From Alphaproteobacteria bacterium (GTDB taxonomy: Bacteria; Pseudomonadota; Alphaproteobacteria; VGDZ01): a stretch of DNA of 35,891 nt. Location of the stretch: assembly GCA_016869515.1 (NCBI GenBank), contig VGDZ01000028.1, positions 1-35,891 on the forward strand. The letters are read 5' to 3'. Below, one piece after another: positions 8,954 to 29,595 of this stretch. The notes beneath the pieces are model-generated. The model was not told where the DNA came from, searched no databases, and worked only from the letters and a program-made list of their open reading frames with translations. The translations under genes and the position numbers were made by a program. The stretch's first letter is position 1. Every line of letters begins with the position of its first letter.

Positions 8954-9026
8954 TGGGCCCGGCAGGATTCGAACCTGCGACAACGCCGTTATGAGCGGCG
9001 CGTTCTGACCGCTGAACTACGGGCCC
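8954..9026 (-). tRNA. tRNA with CAU anticodon, probably tRNA-Ile2
   Basis: 73 bases fold into a complete cloverleaf: acceptor GGGCCCG/CGGGCCC, D stem GTTC/GAAC, anticodon stem CGCCG/CGGCG with loop CTCATAA, T arm GCAGG-TTCGAAT-CCTGC, discriminator A. CCA is not encoded (GAC follows). A CAU anticodon fits elongator Met, initiator Met or lysidine-modified Ile2. The initiator is unlikely because the 1-72 pair is a normal G-C pair. The C4-G69 and C5-G68 pairs match those used by TilS to recognise Ile2 in E. coli, so Ile2 is favoured over elongator Met. It lies 24 bases after the rpoD stop on the same strand and may be co-transcribed. Confidence 0.93.
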
Positions 9027-23572: not shown

Positions 23573-23902
23573 ATGACCGAAGGTGTTCCCCCGCCCAGCC
23601 AGGACTTGTCCCGATTCATAGCCAAGACGGCAATCGTCACAGCCGCGATCGTGATCGGAGTCGTGGCTTCGGCGACCATCATCGGCGACATGGTGGCGAC
23701 GCGTTTGGCGGGCTTGGGCGAAAGCCTGGATTTACGGCGCATCGAGCGCGAACTGGCGCGCGCGGCCGATCCCAAGAACGATTTCACGCCCGAACAGCAG
23801 GAGCGGCTTGCGGTCTACTTGCGCGCGCTGGTCAAGCGGCTGCAGCCGCTGGCGACCGAACTGGCGCCGCTGTTCTGCGGGCCCGAATCGCGTCGCGGCT
23901 AG
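23573..23902 (+). CDS. Small single-span protein of unknown function
   Basis: A 109-residue protein beginning MTEGVPPPSQDLSRF, with one membrane span at about 20-45 and a charged C-terminal part predicted to be helical (RIERELARAADPKNDFTPEQ). I do not recognise a family. The ATG at 23573 was chosen because GAGGCAGG lies just upstream; an in-frame ATG at 23546 is possible. Its TAG stop is formed by the first bases of the 134-bp repeat that follows, so the native C-terminus may have been altered by that element. A small palindrome (AACTCC/GGAGTT, 23493-23507) lies upstream; its role is unknown. Confidence 0.6.
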   Translation: MTEGVPPPSQDLSRFIAKTAIVTAAIVIGVVASATIIGDMVATRLAGLGESLDLRRIERELARAADPKNDFTPEQQERLAVYLRALVKRLQPLATELAPLFCGPESRRG

Positions 23903-24033
23903 ACCGCGATCGGTTCATAGGGAATCGCGCCCGCGATACCCTGTGAACCGTGAATCGCGGTCCAGAGCAGGATACGCGGGCATGATCGATCTGTCTTGAA
24001 CCCTATGGTTCAAGACAGATCGATCATGCCCTA
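23900..24033 (+). repeat. 134-bp double-hairpin element, copy A
   Basis: A compact element of two hairpins. Hairpin 1 (23903-23961) has imperfect arms starting ACCGCGAT and ending ATCGCGGT. Hairpin 2 (23978-24031) has perfect 25-base arms around the loop CTAT. Copy B at 28730-28863 is the same length in reverse orientation and matches at 124 of 134 positions by hand alignment. Both ends lie in CTAG, giving TAG stop codons to the gene on the left (plus strand) and the gene on the right (minus strand). It could be a MITE-like mobile element inserted at TA, or a bidirectional terminator module. No transposase was seen. Confidence 0.88.
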
Positions 24034-25677
24034 GTTTCGCGATCGCTCCCACACTGCGATTTCGCCTTGGCCGTTGGCGAGGACATGGCCGAGCACCAGC
24101 GCTATCGGAATCGCCAGCCACTCCAGCGGCCACAGCAACAGCCGCCGATAGGCCGGCCGTTCCGGCGCCACGAATCGCGTCCATAGCCAAAATGCGATCG
24201 CGTTGGGCATGGCGGCGTGGCCGCGCCGCTCCGTCAGCGACCAACCCTCAGGCGGCGGAGTCGGGCGGGCGGGACCGAACCAGGCGGCGCCGTCAATGAC
24301 GATCAGGCGTGCGGCCCCGTCCGGCGGCGCATCGCCGGCCGCATTCGCCAAAGCCTGGGCCAGCGGAATTTCGGTCAGCGTCGCCGCCAGCCGCCTGATG
24401 CCGGCTTCGACTTCGCCCGGGCGATAGAACTTCCGCTCGTCGCCGACCGGCAAGCGCCATAGCGCGTTCCATGGCCCGCCTCCGGGCGTGAAAAAGCGCC
24501 GAGCGATGAATCGTCGGCGGGACGTCAGCAGCCGGTTGGCGACGGCGACATAAATCTGGTGCGCGCGAGAAAGCGGCGTATTGGCGCCGGCTGCGACGGC
24601 ATGACGTTGCGCATGTTTCAATAGGCGCCTCAGCGCCGTGGCCGGATCGCGCAGCCATAGCCGATCCTGTCCCGCCGTGATCCCGGCCAGGATGGCGCCC
24701 ACCACGCCGCGGGCGCGGGCCTCGACCGGCGCCCAATGAGCGGATTCGAGCGGCCCGGCATGCAGGCGGATCGGCACAGCGAAATGGGCGGCTTGACGAG
24801 GCCCGGTCTCGGCCAGGGCCCAGCGTACGGCGTCGGCCACGCTGCCCTTGCGCACGCCGGTGACCATCTCGCGCAGCGCATCGCTGAGTTCGATCATCAT
24901 CAGTTCGTCGCTGTCGGCGACGATGTGGTCGCCCGCCGGATCCGGACACAGCGCCTCGAGCATGTCGTCGTCGACCGTGCCGCCGAAGCGCGCATCGTCG
25001 CGCTGGGGGCGCAGCATGAAAGGATGCAAATGGAAGCAATGCACCAATAGCCCGTCGCGACCCACCGGCCAGTTCAGCATCGAGGGGTGCAGGCTCTCGC
25101 CTGCCGCGCCGGCATCGAAACGATGCTCGGCCAGAAGGGCGGGGTGCAGATGCGCGATGCCGATTCCCGCAAGCGCTCGCGCCGGGACCGGCAAGCTGCC
25201 GTCGGCGGCGCGAAACGCCTCCAGCGCCGGCACGACGCTCGGTTTCCAGGTGCGGATTCCGATCACCAAGGCGGTCGAGCGCCCCGCCGCCGCCAGCCCC
25301 TCCAATGTCGGCAGGGTCCCGTCGGAAAAGACGTTGTCCCCGGTCAGGGGCGCCAGTGCCGCTCCCTTGGCGGCCGCATCGACCAGGCCGCGCCGATAGC
25401 TTTCCGACATCATGGCGTGGGCGCCGGCGTTCATGTCGTCGATCGGATCGATCGCCAGCGGCATGTACTCGCCGATGCGCCGGATCAGCGGATGGGCGGC
25501 GATGCGATCGCGATCGGCCGCGCGGGTGAAGACCCGGTAGAGGCTGGCCTCGCGCGCCTTCAGCGCCGGCAGGTTTCCGGCCGCGGCATGGCAGGGCAGC
25601 ACCAGATCGAAATAGGTCCCGAGATAGGCCTCGCCCCAAATCGGGACGACGACATGCAGGGGATGGCCGCCGCTCAC
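24031..25677 (-). CDS. Large protein of unknown function, possibly glycosyltransferase-like
   Basis: A 548-residue protein. The N-terminal part (LHVVVPIWGEAYLGTYFDLV, then a predicted alternation of strands and helices and a DDMNAGAHAMMSES stretch) looks like a nucleotide-sugar-type Rossmann fold, but no diagnostic glycosyltransferase motif is clear, so the role is open. The extreme C-terminus has a hydrophobic span (LLLWPLEWLAIPIALVLGHVL), suggesting membrane attachment. It starts with GTG at 25677, divergent from the SGNH gene by 80 bases. Its neighbours (hydrolase-like and GT-C-like proteins) suggest surface polysaccharide work. Its TAG stop is the end of repeat copy A. Confidence 0.75.
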   Translation of the reverse strand: MSGGHPLHVVVPIWGEAYLGTYFDLVLPCHAAAGNLPALKAREASLYRVFTRAADRDRIAAHPLIRRIGEYMPLAIDPIDDMNAGAHAMMSESYRRGLVDAAAKGAALAPLTGDNVFSDGTLPTLEGLAAAGRSTALVIGIRTWKPSVVPALEAFRAADGSLPVPARALAGIGIAHLHPALLAEHRFDAGAAGESLHPSMLNWPVGRDGLLVHCFHLHPFMLRPQRDDARFGGTVDDDMLEALCPDPAGDHIVADSDELMMIELSDALREMVTGVRKGSVADAVRWALAETGPRQAAHFAVPIRLHAGPLESAHWAPVEARARGVVGAILAGITAGQDRLWLRDPATALRRLLKHAQRHAVAAGANTPLSRAHQIYVAVANRLLTSRRRFIARRFFTPGGGPWNALWRLPVGDERKFYRPGEVEAGIRRLAATLTEIPLAQALANAAGDAPPDGAARLIVIDGAAWFGPARPTPPPEGWSLTERRGHAAMPNAIAFWLWTRFVAPERPAYRRLLLWPLEWLAIPIALVLGHVLANGQGEIAVWERSRN

Positions 25678-25692
25678 CGGCCGGCGCCCGCG

Positions 25693-25721
25693 TTGCCGGG
25701 CCCGGCGGGCTCGCCTATAAG
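25693..25721 (+). promoter_or_regulatory. Candidate sigma70 promoter for the SGNH/GT-C pair
   Basis: TTGCCG (25693-25698) and TATAAG (25716-25721) are 17 bp apart in the 80-bp divergent gap. The predicted start near 25728 leaves a leader of about 30 bases before the TTG start codon. No clear operator was seen. Confidence 0.55.
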
Positions 25722-25757
25722 CAGACCGAACCCCGACCGCCAGAGACCATCCCCGCC

Positions 25758-26972
25758 TTGCGCCTCAGACCGCCCACCTTCCTTGGCCGCATCGCCCAAA
25801 TCGCCCTGGTCACGGCGATCTGCCTGGCCGCGCTGTGGGGCGGGCTGGTGGTGTTCGAGCGTTCGATCCTCAAGCGCATCGGCGGCTTCCAGCCCGACGC
25901 GCCGGGACACGACGTCGCCGCGACCGAGCGCACCATCCGCACGCTCGATCTTTATCCCTGGACCGGCTGGCACGTGCAGCACGAATTCCGCCATCGCGGC
26001 ACCATGCCCTGGGAGTCGCAGCCGTACAACGACTATGACGTCGCCACCGGTCGGCTGGGATTCTTCGATCACGACGTGCTGGCGCCGCCCGACAAGGCGC
26101 AATGCGAGCGGCGGGTGGTCCTGATCGGCGGGTCGGGCGCGCAAGGCTGGGGCGCGCGCTCCAATGCCGATACTTTGGCGCGGCGGTTGGAATTCCATCT
26201 CGGCGCCGCGCCCGAAAACGCAGGCCTGACTGCCACTGTGGTCAACCTGGCGATGGGCGCCTCGATCGGCTACCAGAATTTTATCGCCCTCAACCGCTTC
26301 GGCCACGCCCTCAAGCCCGACGTCATCGTCAGTTATTCCGGTCGCAACGACTACATCGTGCCGGAGATGAACGGCAATGACGGCTTTTATCAGTTCAACC
26401 AGTTGTTGGCGCTGAGCCGCGTCGTCCGCCGCAACGAGAATTCGGGCCTGGTCGAGTGGCTGTCGAGCGCCTTTCCGCGCCTGATGGAGCGTACCGGCCT
26501 CGGCGCGGGCCTGCGCATGACCAACGAATATGGCCGGCTGACCCGCGAGGCGCCGGCGGAATACGCCGCCCGCTTCGGCTTCGAACGGATGTCGGCGTCC
26601 GAATTCCTCGACCAGGTGGTGCTGGCGAACTATGTCCACGCCCTCAAGTCGATCCGGCGCGATCACGCCGGCGTGCCGATCGCCATCGCCTGGCAGGCGG
26701 TGCAGCGCTGGGAGACTGATTTGTCGCGTTTCGCCAAGGAGGTCGAGCCCGATTTCTACGAGCGCCTGTTCGCGCGCGCGCGCGCGGCGCTCGAGGGTTA
26801 CGGCGAGGGCGATTGGCGCTTCGTCGACGCCCATGGCCACATGAAGGGCTTCGCCGAGGAGAACACCGGCACCCATCTCGGCAATGCCGGCCAGGACCGC
26901 GTCGCCCGGCTGATTGCCGGCGAAATCCTGCCCTGGATCGAACGCAGCCGCGGCACATGCAAGCGGTCCTGA
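25758..26972 (+). CDS. SGNH/GDSL hydrolase-like membrane-anchored protein
   Basis: A 404-residue protein with an N-terminal membrane span (about 10-32) and a large, probably periplasmic domain. SGNH-type blocks are visible: nucleophile S126 in GGSGAQGWG, N197 in SGRNDYIV and H373 in GTHLGNAGQDR. The aspartate normally three residues before the histidine is threonine (T370), so the triad is either altered or completed elsewhere. Such proteins often add or remove acyl groups on surface polysaccharides. The start is TTG at 25758, since no ATG or GTG precedes the membrane span in frame at a sensible place. It overlaps the next gene by 16 bases. Confidence 0.8.
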   Translation: MRLRPPTFLGRIAQIALVTAICLAALWGGLVVFERSILKRIGGFQPDAPGHDVAATERTIRTLDLYPWTGWHVQHEFRHRGTMPWESQPYNDYDVATGRLGFFDHDVLAPPDKAQCERRVVLIGGSGAQGWGARSNADTLARRLEFHLGAAPENAGLTATVVNLAMGASIGYQNFIALNRFGHALKPDVIVSYSGRNDYIVPEMNGNDGFYQFNQLLALSRVVRRNENSGLVEWLSSAFPRLMERTGLGAGLRMTNEYGRLTREAPAEYAARFGFERMSASEFLDQVVLANYVHALKSIRRDHAGVPIAIAWQAVQRWETDLSRFAKEVEPDFYERLFARARAALEGYGEGDWRFVDAHGHMKGFAEENTGTHLGNAGQDRVARLIAGEILPWIERSRGTCKRS

Positions 26973-28732
26973 GGCGCGACGAAGCGCTGCTGACGGCGCC
27001 GCTGTTGGCGGTGTCGGGTTTCTGGGTGCTGGAGCTGAGCGGGCTGGCGCCGATCCTGCCTTGGCCTTGGTTGACGGCGTTGGTTTTCGGTGTATTGCCG
27101 GTGCTTGTGGCGAGAGCGGTTGGCGCGGGCCGCCACACAAGCGGCCAAGTCGCCGCCATCGTTGCGATGGTTGGGTTCGCGTTCGCGGTCCAGTTGCTGC
27201 TCTATCGCGACAGTTTCATCCTGGCGCATCTCGATCATCTCAACCCGCTGGCGATGGCGCGCGAGATCGCCGCTCACGGCACCATCCGGCATCTGCCCGA
27301 GACCGGCGATGCTTTCTGGATCGCCTATCCGCCGGGGCTCGGTCTGCTGCTGGCGCCCTTGTTCGTGCTGTTCGATCGGTTGACCGCGATCGGCCTCTAC
27401 ACCTGGATACACCAGGCCGTGGTCGCGCTTGTGCCGTTGGTTTGGGCGTTCGGATTGCGCCGCTTGTTCTTTCCGTGGGCGCCGGCAGCCCTGACGGTAC
27501 TGGCGTTCTATGTCGGCTTTCTTTGTCTCGACCGGTCGCTGCTGCCCGGCTCGGTTCACGCCGGCAAGGATGCGCTGATGGTTGCGGCGTTGCTGTTTCC
27601 GGGGGCGATGCTGGTGTTGCTGGGCGAGGCCGCGGGCTGGCGGCGAGGCCTGGTGGCGGTGCTGGTTTGCCTCGGTGCGGTGCTGACCCACTACGCCATG
27701 ATCTACCTGCTGGCTTGCATCGGCTTGGCTTGGGCGGCGGTGATGCGTCCCGGCTGGCGCCGGCTATGGTGGTGTGCAGCGGTGGGCGGCGCGGTCGTGG
27801 CGCTGTTCTTGCCGGCCTTGGTCCAGATCCAGGCGCAGCACATGACTTTGGCCGATCAAGGCCAGGTGGCGGAAAAAGGGCGGTTTCTGGTCGACTTGCT
27901 GGCGCAGCGGCTGAATCCGCTTTTGCACATCTACAACGATCCGCAGCATACCCGGTTGGTGCCGTTCCCCTGGAAGGGCGCGGCCCTGGTGCTGGCTTGG
28001 CTGGTGGCGATGGCTACGGCGCGTTGGGCACGGTCGAAGGAGTGGGCGGAGGCGCCGGCGCTGGCGGGAGTGGCGCGTGCCGCTTCGATGCTGGGCTTGG
28101 CCGTGATTTTGGCGGCGGTTCTGGCTTCGGGTTTGATTCCGGGCGCGGGCGTGAACCTGATCTACAGTTCCTGGTACATGCAGTTCCCGATCGCGGCCTT
28201 GTTCGGCTGCGGGGTGGCGGCGCTGCTGATCCTGGTCCGGCGCGCCGAGTTCGAGCCGCGGCTGATCGCCAGCCTGGCGCTGCTGGCGATCGTGATCCGC
28301 GGCGCGACATGGCTGGGCAGCGACTACGCCGAAAGCCGCCGCCATGTCCTCAAGCATCGCGTTGCGGCGTCGGATCTGGTGGCCCTGCGCTCGGTGCTGC
28401 CGACCGCCGCACCCTGTTTCCTTGCGCTGCAGGGCGGGGCGATCGACAGCGGCATGATGCCGCGCCTGGTGCAGGTCGCCCAGACCGCGCGCGCGCTCGA
28501 CCATCTTGCGCTGTTGTCGGATTGTCGCGTCGTCAGCGGCAGTTTCGTCGCCTTCGCCATGCCGGGCGGCCGTGCGCTCGACGGGCTACCGGCGGCAGGC
28601 GCGTGGCCGACGGGCGCGCCCTTGACGGTGATCGCCCATCTCGAGCCGATCGAACGCTATGCCCGCGCCCTGGGGCGGAAGGTGCCGGAGTTGCGGCCCT
28701 TGCCCGGTGGCCTAGTGGCGGCGGTGTTTTAG
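26957..28732 (+). CDS. Polytopic membrane protein, GT-C glycosyltransferase-like
   Basis: A 591-residue protein with about 11-12 predicted membrane spans. Early in the chain, after the first spans, an extracytoplasmic loop contains HLDHLNPLAMAREIAAHG and then FWIAYPPGLGLLLAPLF. This resembles the first loop of GT39/ArnT-type transferases that use lipid-linked sugars. The C-terminal quarter is soluble-looking. The exact activity is inferred only from this layout. The ATG at 26957 lies 16 bases inside the end of the SGNH gene, so the two are probably translated together and act on the same glycan. Its stop TAG is the outer end of repeat copy B. Confidence 0.78.
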   Translation: MQAVLRRDEALLTAPLLAVSGFWVLELSGLAPILPWPWLTALVFGVLPVLVARAVGAGRHTSGQVAAIVAMVGFAFAVQLLLYRDSFILAHLDHLNPLAMAREIAAHGTIRHLPETGDAFWIAYPPGLGLLLAPLFVLFDRLTAIGLYTWIHQAVVALVPLVWAFGLRRLFFPWAPAALTVLAFYVGFLCLDRSLLPGSVHAGKDALMVAALLFPGAMLVLLGEAAGWRRGLVAVLVCLGAVLTHYAMIYLLACIGLAWAAVMRPGWRRLWWCAAVGGAVVALFLPALVQIQAQHMTLADQGQVAEKGRFLVDLLAQRLNPLLHIYNDPQHTRLVPFPWKGAALVLAWLVAMATARWARSKEWAEAPALAGVARAASMLGLAVILAAVLASGLIPGAGVNLIYSSWYMQFPIAALFGCGVAALLILVRRAEFEPRLIASLALLAIVIRGATWLGSDYAESRRHVLKHRVAASDLVALRSVLPTAAPCFLALQGGAIDSGMMPRLVQVAQTARALDHLALLSDCRVVSGSFVAFAMPGGRALDGLPAAGAWPTGAPLTVIAHLEPIERYARALGRKVPELRPLPGGLVAAVF

Positions 28733-28863
28733 GGCATGATCGATTTGTCTTGAACTCTATAGTTCAAGACAGATCGATCATGCCCTCGTATCCTGCTCTG
28801 GACCGCGATTCACGGTTCATAGGGAATCGCGGCCGTGATTCCCTATGAACCGATCGCGGTCTA
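28730..28863 (-). repeat. 134-bp double-hairpin element, copy B (inverted)
   Basis: Reverse-oriented partner of copy A. Hairpin 2 (28731-28786) has 26-base arms with loop CTAT and one T-G wobble. Its loop-closing pair differs from copy A (T-A here, C-G there), a paired change that keeps the stem. Hairpin 1 has 8- and 16-base arms around an 8-base loop with a 3-base bulge. The left end is TTAG, the stop of the GT-C-like gene, and the right end is CTAG, the stop of the minus-strand methyltransferase. Together with copy A it brackets 4.7 kb holding three genes. Confidence 0.88.
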
Positions 28864-29595
28864 GGCGCGGCGGACGCGCGCCACGATCTGCCAGCCCAGC
28901 GGCGCGTCGCGCAGGTTGAAGCGAAACAGGGCGTCGAAGGCGCGGAACGCCAGCGCCTGCAGCCCGCGCGCCGGCGCGGCCGAGTCCTCGACCGCTTGGC
29001 CGCCGCGCAGCACCACCACCAAGCGATAGAGGGTGTGAAACGGAAAACCGGCGCGCCAGACGAAATCGGCGGCCAGGCCCGCCGCCGCCAACTCGGCGCG
29101 CAGGATCGCTTCGGTATAGTGCTTGCGATGGCCGACATGGCGATCGAAGGCCGAGATCGGCCCCGCCGGCACGGTGATAACCATCCGTCCCTCGGCCGCC
29201 AGCAGCTCGCGTGCCGCCGCCAGCGCTTCGATCGGCCGATCGAGATGTTCGATCGCTTCGGCGCAGAGCGCATGCGTCGCCCAGCCCCGCAATTCCACCG
29301 GCGGCGCGGCCAAGTCGGTGGCGAAAAACCGCCCCGCGGGCACGCGCCGCGCCGCGGTCGCGATGCCTTGGGCGCTGCCGTCATAACCGGCAATGGCGAT
29401 CTCCGGCCGACGCTCGGCCAGGGCCGCCGCGAAACTGCCCTCGCCGCAGCCGATGTCGACCAGGCGCACCGGCGCGCGCGCCTCTTCCAACGCCAAGGCC
29501 CGCCAAATCAGATCGCGCCGATAGCGATAGGCCGGGTTGGCCAGCATCCACACCGCCAGCCGCCGCCAATGCGCATCCCAATCGTCGCCGCTCAT
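28861..29595 (-). CDS. SAM-dependent methyltransferase (class I)
   Basis: A 244-residue cytoplasmic enzyme starting MSGDDWDAHWRRLAVWMLAN. The SAM-binding motif I is VDIGCGEGSFAAAL at about 48-61. An acidic residue in GYDGSAQGI ends strand 2, and AEAIEHLDRP sits at the UbiG/UbiE-like post-motif position. An HVGHRKHYTE stretch is typical of methyltransferases in polysaccharide loci. The ATG overlaps the stop of the glycosyltransferase as ATGA, so the methyl acceptor may be a glycan or lipid intermediate of that enzyme (inference). The TAG stop is provided by repeat copy B. Confidence 0.87.
   Translation of the reverse strand: MSGDDWDAHWRRLAVWMLANPAYRYRRDLIWRALALEEARAPVRLVDIGCGEGSFAAALAERRPEIAIAGYDGSAQGIATAARRVPAGRFFATDLAAPPVELRGWATHALCAEAIEHLDRPIEALAAARELLAAEGRMVITVPAGPISAFDRHVGHRKHYTEAILRAELAAAGLAADFVWRAGFPFHTLYRLVVVLRGGQAVEDSAAPARGLQALAFRAFDALFRFNLRDAPLGWQIVARVRRA

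Follow-up and report, generated by a model that had tools for sequence, protein, structure and literature searches.

Two inverted repeats bracketing a three-gene block are very likely independent insertions of a dispersed, stop-codon-associated double-hairpin element

Two inverted repeats, here called copies A and B, bracket three genes in the 35,891-nucleotide stretch of alphaproteobacterial DNA that we analyzed (the window; contig VGDZ01000028.1). We consider it very likely that they arose as two separate insertions of a dispersed, nonautonomous mobile element of about 133 bp, most likely of the CIR/MITE/REP-dimer kind. An earlier note on this DNA had offered two independent MITE-like insertions as one of its readings. 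This reading is supported: the genome holds at least 91 full copies, about 20 other genomes carry relatives, and congeners from other lineages have clean empty sites showing a TA duplication. The note had missed the high copy number of the repeat.

Self-comparison of the window recovered an inverted repeat of 143 nt at positions 23891-24033 and 28730-28872, 92% complementary and 4.7 kb apart. Copies A and B are 92.3% identical, which bears out the opposite orientation and the 124 matches among 134 positions first counted by hand. The 134-bp bounds (23900-24033 and 28730-28863) comprise an element of 130 bp and a flanking TA on each side. Copy A (23902-24031, + strand; model R1, 154.8 bits, E 7.7e-38) consists of hairpin I (23902-23962), which carries a 3-nt bulge, TGA, in its inner arm (23951-23953), a 15-nt linker (23963-23977), and hairpin II (23978-24031), which lacks the 3-nt inner-arm bulge of most copies. 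Copy B (28732-28861, - strand; model R1, 153.8 bits, E 1.3e-37) has the same parts in reverse, with an unbulged hairpin II at 28732-28785 and a bulged hairpin I at 28801-28861. Copy A folds as DNA into two long hairpins at -63.2 kcal/mol (z = -13.1; as RNA, z = -12.5), and copy B likewise folds into two long hairpins.

A codon-usage gene call confirmed that A and B enclose exactly three genes: one of 548 amino acids without a family match (24031-25677, - strand), one of 404 amino acids with a weak GDSL/SGNH match under the cutoff (25758-26972, + strand; E 1e-5), and one of 591 amino acids with only a subthreshold match to O-antigen ligase (Wzy_C; 26957-28732, + strand). All four gene ends that touch A and B are TAG stops formed by an element junction, a point absent from the earlier note. 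The TA to the left of A (23900-23901) and G23902 form the stop of a + strand gene ending at 23902, while the TA to its right (24032-24033) and C24031 form the stop of the 548-amino-acid gene. At copy B, the TA beside hairpin II (28730-28731) and G28732 close the 591-amino-acid gene, and the TA beside hairpin I (28862-28863) and C28861 close a methyltransferase gene (28861-29595, - strand). Elsewhere in the window, a tRNA gene at 8954-9026 (- strand) is the sole Rfam match.

Searches of the genome from which the window comes (G000; 3.69 Mb in 166 contigs, assembly 97.1% complete) returned 42 full matches, 67 hairpin-I arms, and 145 hairpin-II arms. From the sequence stretches around these matches, we placed 92 candidate copies, one of which, at window position 27381, is a spurious pattern match, leaving at least 91 distinct full copies. 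The element is 133 bp long in 63 of 87 copies. It is built from two imperfect hairpins that face away from a linker of about 15 nt, so that the outer arms are the ends of the element, and its consensus in this genome reads, between two flanking TA dinucleotides, GACCGCGAT-CGGTTCATAGGGAATC...GATTCCCTATGAACCG-TGA-ATCGCGGTC, the linker, and GGGCATGAT-TCA-CGATCTGTCTTGAAC...GTTCAAGACAGATCG-ATCATGCCC. Each hairpin rises from a 9-bp basal stem, usually bears a 3-nt bulge in its linker-side arm (kept in hairpin I and missing from hairpin II in both A and B), and continues into an upper stem that varies by subfamily yet remains paired. The two ends, GACCGCGATCGGTT and GGGCATGATCGATC, are alike at only about 9 of 14 positions by eye. 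Solo palindromic hairpins of both types also occur, without the bulge. Short variants of about 96 to 103 bp, found at four loci (L041, L042, L047, and L049), have lost the upper stem of hairpin I and kept the outer ends, with TA flanks everywhere except on the right side of L042.

The two hairpins are conserved as structures. Pairing holds in 95.4% of cells across 24 diverse copies, and 38 of 46 pairs have changed on both sides; none of 500 shuffles reached the observed value, and no slide came near it. The alignment was built without fitting to structure, but the structure was taken from one of its rows, which biases the slide control in its favor and leaves the two-sided changes unaffected.

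The same architecture extends across the class. With 35 copies as the basis of a covariance model, we found it in at least 20 of 385 alphaproteobacterial genomes, own genome included, a lower bound because only eight candidates were scored per genome. BLAST against the same 385 genomes gave only two matches, one relative and one weak hit, so that the covariance model was needed for the rest; an exact-pattern scan of GTDB 220 had a sole match, in the alphaproteobacterial metagenome-assembled genome VGDO01. Most relatives follow the pattern C-TAGAGCnnGATCG-[stem]-CGTGAATCnnGCTCTA-linker-TAGAGCnnGATTCACG-[stem]-CGATCnnGCTCTA-G, with variations, and lengths across copies and relatives range from 115 bp (G078) to 139 bp. 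TA lies on both sides of 25 of 40 copies in other genomes, where CTA...TAG flanks are found too. No similar sequence was found in plasmids, phages, or viral contigs.

Copies in the window's own genome carry a mean of 2.57 GANTC sites each, about 19 per kb against a background of 2.8 per kb, and the conserved sites lie mainly in the bulged inner arms (A has two sites and B has three). A subfamily in genomes G313 and G229 (L146 to L154) has the bulge TAA in place of TGA or TCA and almost no GANTC, with zero or one site per copy; GANTC is therefore not required for spread of the architecture.

The flanks of the copies point to a specific target. In the own genome, the left flank reads CTA before the initial G of the element in 61 of 87 copies, and the right flank reads TAG (45/87) or TAA (21/87) after its final C. 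TA is present on both sides of 61 of the 92 candidate copies, a class that leaves out about a third of copies, those with changed flanks. When one TA is collapsed, the target in this class becomes CTAG in 34 of 61 cases and CTAA in 19. By our gene calls, made with a custom codon model for which the sampled DNA served as training set, a gene stops precisely at the junction in 35 of these 61 copies, the TAG being composed of the target TA and the terminal G of the element. Junctions supply the stops of both convergent genes in 14 copies, including A and B, and of one gene in 21, while the remaining 26 copies are not at stops. We compared these counts with 145 noncoding YTAR sites drawn from the same neighborhoods of sampled DNA, away from elements, of which 36 lie at a single stop and 1 lies at a double stop. 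The single-stop class is near background, and the excess sits mainly in overlapping convergent stops (14/61 versus 1/145; Fisher p=1.4e-7).

The gene ends that we checked are native and not truncated. A tryptophan 2,3-dioxygenase that stops at a junction ends at profile position 264 of 264, a ModA reaches position 217 of 217 four residues before the end of the protein, and a HemW reaches position 388 of 390. These native ends argue that the TA belonged to a stop codon before insertion. At junctions in other genomes, the longest open frame is the one closed by TAG in 28 cases, compared with 10 and 6 for the remaining frames.

Empty sites indicate how the element may arrive. We joined the flanks of copies in G313 and G235 without the element and searched them in the congeners G229 and G134; several joined flanks match the congener straight across the junction, with one TA in the empty site and two in the occupied site. 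These pairs belong to other genera of the class and to sites other than A and B. Examples are GGCACA-TA-GAG (L157/L188), GTTAGC (L153/L192), CTAC (L149/L189), for which the occupied site has one TA and one changed copy, and ATCCGC-TAA (L155/L195), where TAA is the native stop of the congener and the occupied site has TAG. The simplest reading of these differences would be insertion with a 2-bp TA duplication; precise excision would yield identical empty sites, and that the differences are insertions instead of precise losses is what we infer. The own genome has one imperfect, diverged paralogous empty site, at which the occupied copy is net 2 nt longer (L027/L049): a paralogous gene in L049 serves as the empty site for the element of L027. 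These two loci (L049, about 1900-2260) also share, beside the duplicated gene, a sequence at 93% that resembles by eye a remnant of an IS3-type transposase.

Together, these observations suggest a mechanism in which the element inserts at TA, preferably within CTAG or CTAA, and duplicates that TA. Because the element starts with G and ends with C, each adjoining TA copy would read TAG on the strand that enters the element, and insertion into the TA of a TAA or TAG stop would restore a stop; convergent genes that share a TA would both be restored. Copy A would occupy such a shared TA where the gene ending at 23902 meets the 548-amino-acid gene, and copy B would occupy another between the 591-amino-acid gene and the methyltransferase gene. 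A transposase working in trans on its outer arms would move the element. Enrichment at stop codons would then reflect both target choice and survival of harmless insertions, and for double stops it could be largely survivor bias.

The own genome, in its 97.1% complete assembly of 166 contigs, contains no Y1_Tnp (RAYT) gene, no IS630 transposase, and no DDE_Tnp_1 (IS4/IS5-type) transposase, and no longer, kilobase-scale element with the same ends was found around the sampled copies. Without a transposase of these kinds, the element may not be mobile today. Two Y1_Tnp genes are carried by a related genome, G121, and no element arms flank them in the available sequence, in which one contig ends just downstream; a RAYT origin was rejected on these grounds. 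An alternative explanation sees in the element a REP dimer of the REPIN-like, head-to-head type, tagged with TAG and dispersed by a REP-associated tyrosine (HUH) transposase that works on single-stranded hairpins. The pair of mirrored, bulged hairpins with TAG on the outside, the strict stem covariation, the Y1_Tnp genes of G121, and the bias to convergent genes with TAG stops supplied, as reported for GTAG REPs (PMC3733652), all agree with this proposal. Against it, besides the distribution of Y1_Tnp, stand the tag, which is YTAG and not GTAG, and the hairpins, which measure 54 to 61 nt instead of 20 to 40 nt. The empty sites hold a single TA, whereas IS200/605-type movement is not known to duplicate its target. 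We regard the REP-dimer explanation as unlikely. The bulges mirror each other, which suggests that the folded single strand may be what is recognized, much as it is in REP elements; the TA duplication appears more like IS630/mariner-type movement.

That the copies are immobile, kept between convergent genes as conserved bidirectional terminators or stabilizers of mRNA 3' ends, seems very improbable. Strong hairpins do lie directly after the stop codons of convergent genes, and only 10 of 87 copies are between divergent genes, but neither A nor B has an intrinsic-terminator match, orthologous sites in congeners are without the element, 26 of the 61 TA-flanked copies are away from stops, and the element matches no Rfam family at the gathering threshold. 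The weak Rfam matches were essentially all to animal and plant hairpin models below threshold, and we took them as chance.

The remaining alternative, also raised in the earlier note and unsupported here, is that the two copies delimit a single composite or invertible cassette, mobilized or flipped through recombination between inverted copies; we find it scarcely credible. It would account for the inverted pair, and the outer flanks alone can be read as a single TA insertion, since each of the outer genes would still end in TAG. But 22 neighboring pairs, A/B among them, are separated by under 8 kb (13 inverted and 9 direct), A is closest to copy L002 and B is closest to copy L004, the inner as well as the outer gene ends fit independent stop-codon insertions, the block has the G+C content of the DNA outside it (68.3% versus 68.4%), and Pfam searches revealed no recombinase among the genes examined around A and B. 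The identity between A and B ranks only 12th and 17th, indicating neither paired shared descent nor gene conversion. Spacing and orientation are ordinary for this element family, and the bracketing by itself carries little meaning. Other arrangements include three full copies in the same orientation within about 550 bp (L034, 1503-2048; G000 C80:12293-12842) and two copies 849 bp apart with identical left flanks (L035, 654-1632), apparently a tandem duplication that took in the element and flanking sequence. Copies of the hairpin element are also interleaved with those of another dispersed repeat family, which contains GGCCTCAATGGCCGTTCCAAGCTGCGATGAG and is about 92 to 95% alike across loci, at L101 (560-1300), L108, L090, L023, L066, and L106.

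CIR, the CcrM-associated intergenic repeats of Chen and Shapiro (2003), are about 110 bp long with GANTC at or near the terminal loop, and their mechanism of mobility is stated to be unresolved (PMC2229807). Like the element described here, they are alphaproteobacterial, multicopy, and intergenic, with two long inverted-repeat arms and a linker, TA at both termini, and conserved GANTC (PMC2229807). The present element differs in its length of 115 to 139 bp and in the placement of GANTC mainly in bulged inner arms, with at most one site in the G313/G229 subfamily, and the account of CIR in PMC2229807 reports neither a target-site duplication nor insertion at stop codons. Judged by these published descriptions, the element and CIR probably belong to the same superfamily. 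GTAG REP dimers and REPINs (PMC3733652) share with it the paired inverted hairpins, the outer TAG, the location at convergent gene ends, and the donation of TAG stops; the element differs in its YTAG tag (CTAG and TTAG predominate, and a left-side GTA is present in just 1 of 87 copies), its longer hairpins, its single-TA empty sites, and a genome without RAYT. The TA-duplicating MITEs ERIC, Correia/NEMIS, and RUP (PMC2229807) are likewise multicopy, about 100 to 200 bp long, mostly intergenic, and TA-ended with target-site duplication, but they form one long end-to-end hairpin with terminal inverted repeats, whereas here each end has a hairpin of its own and the ends are weakly alike. The element shares with MITEs a 2-bp TA target-site duplication, seen in the congeneric empty sites; terminal inverted repeats in common with an autonomous IS were not found in the own genome or at the sampled loci. 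RIME, the Rhizobium-specific intergenic mosaic elements, carry two palindromes. Model R1 found nothing significant in 450 kb of Sinorhizobium meliloti pSymB, searched as a check for RIME (best E 0.015, poor alignment). RIME are alphaproteobacterial intergenic repeats (PMC2573895, PMC2245857).

The effect on stop codons is not unprecedented; this work adds the TA duplication, covariation across the class, and the preference for double stops. A more speculative proposal, which we hold to be doubtful, is that a class-wide family of hairpin-ended, stop-codon-specialized elements is recognized mainly through the hairpin and its 3-nt bulge, given stems that vary freely without losing their pairing, and duplicates TA, and so would depend on an enzyme able both to read hairpins and to integrate at TA targets, and lying outside the families tested. 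The literature has recorded CIR-type repeats since 2003, and this case adds to them a target rule (TA in CTAG or CTAA, duplicated) and congeneric empty sites, together with a covariance model that detects relatives missed by BLAST. It turns the search for a mobilizing enzyme, and likewise the testing of target choice, into concrete tasks, and it offers an explanation for the survival of such elements between genes: by rebuilding the stop codons in which it would land, the element would leave the flanking genes intact.
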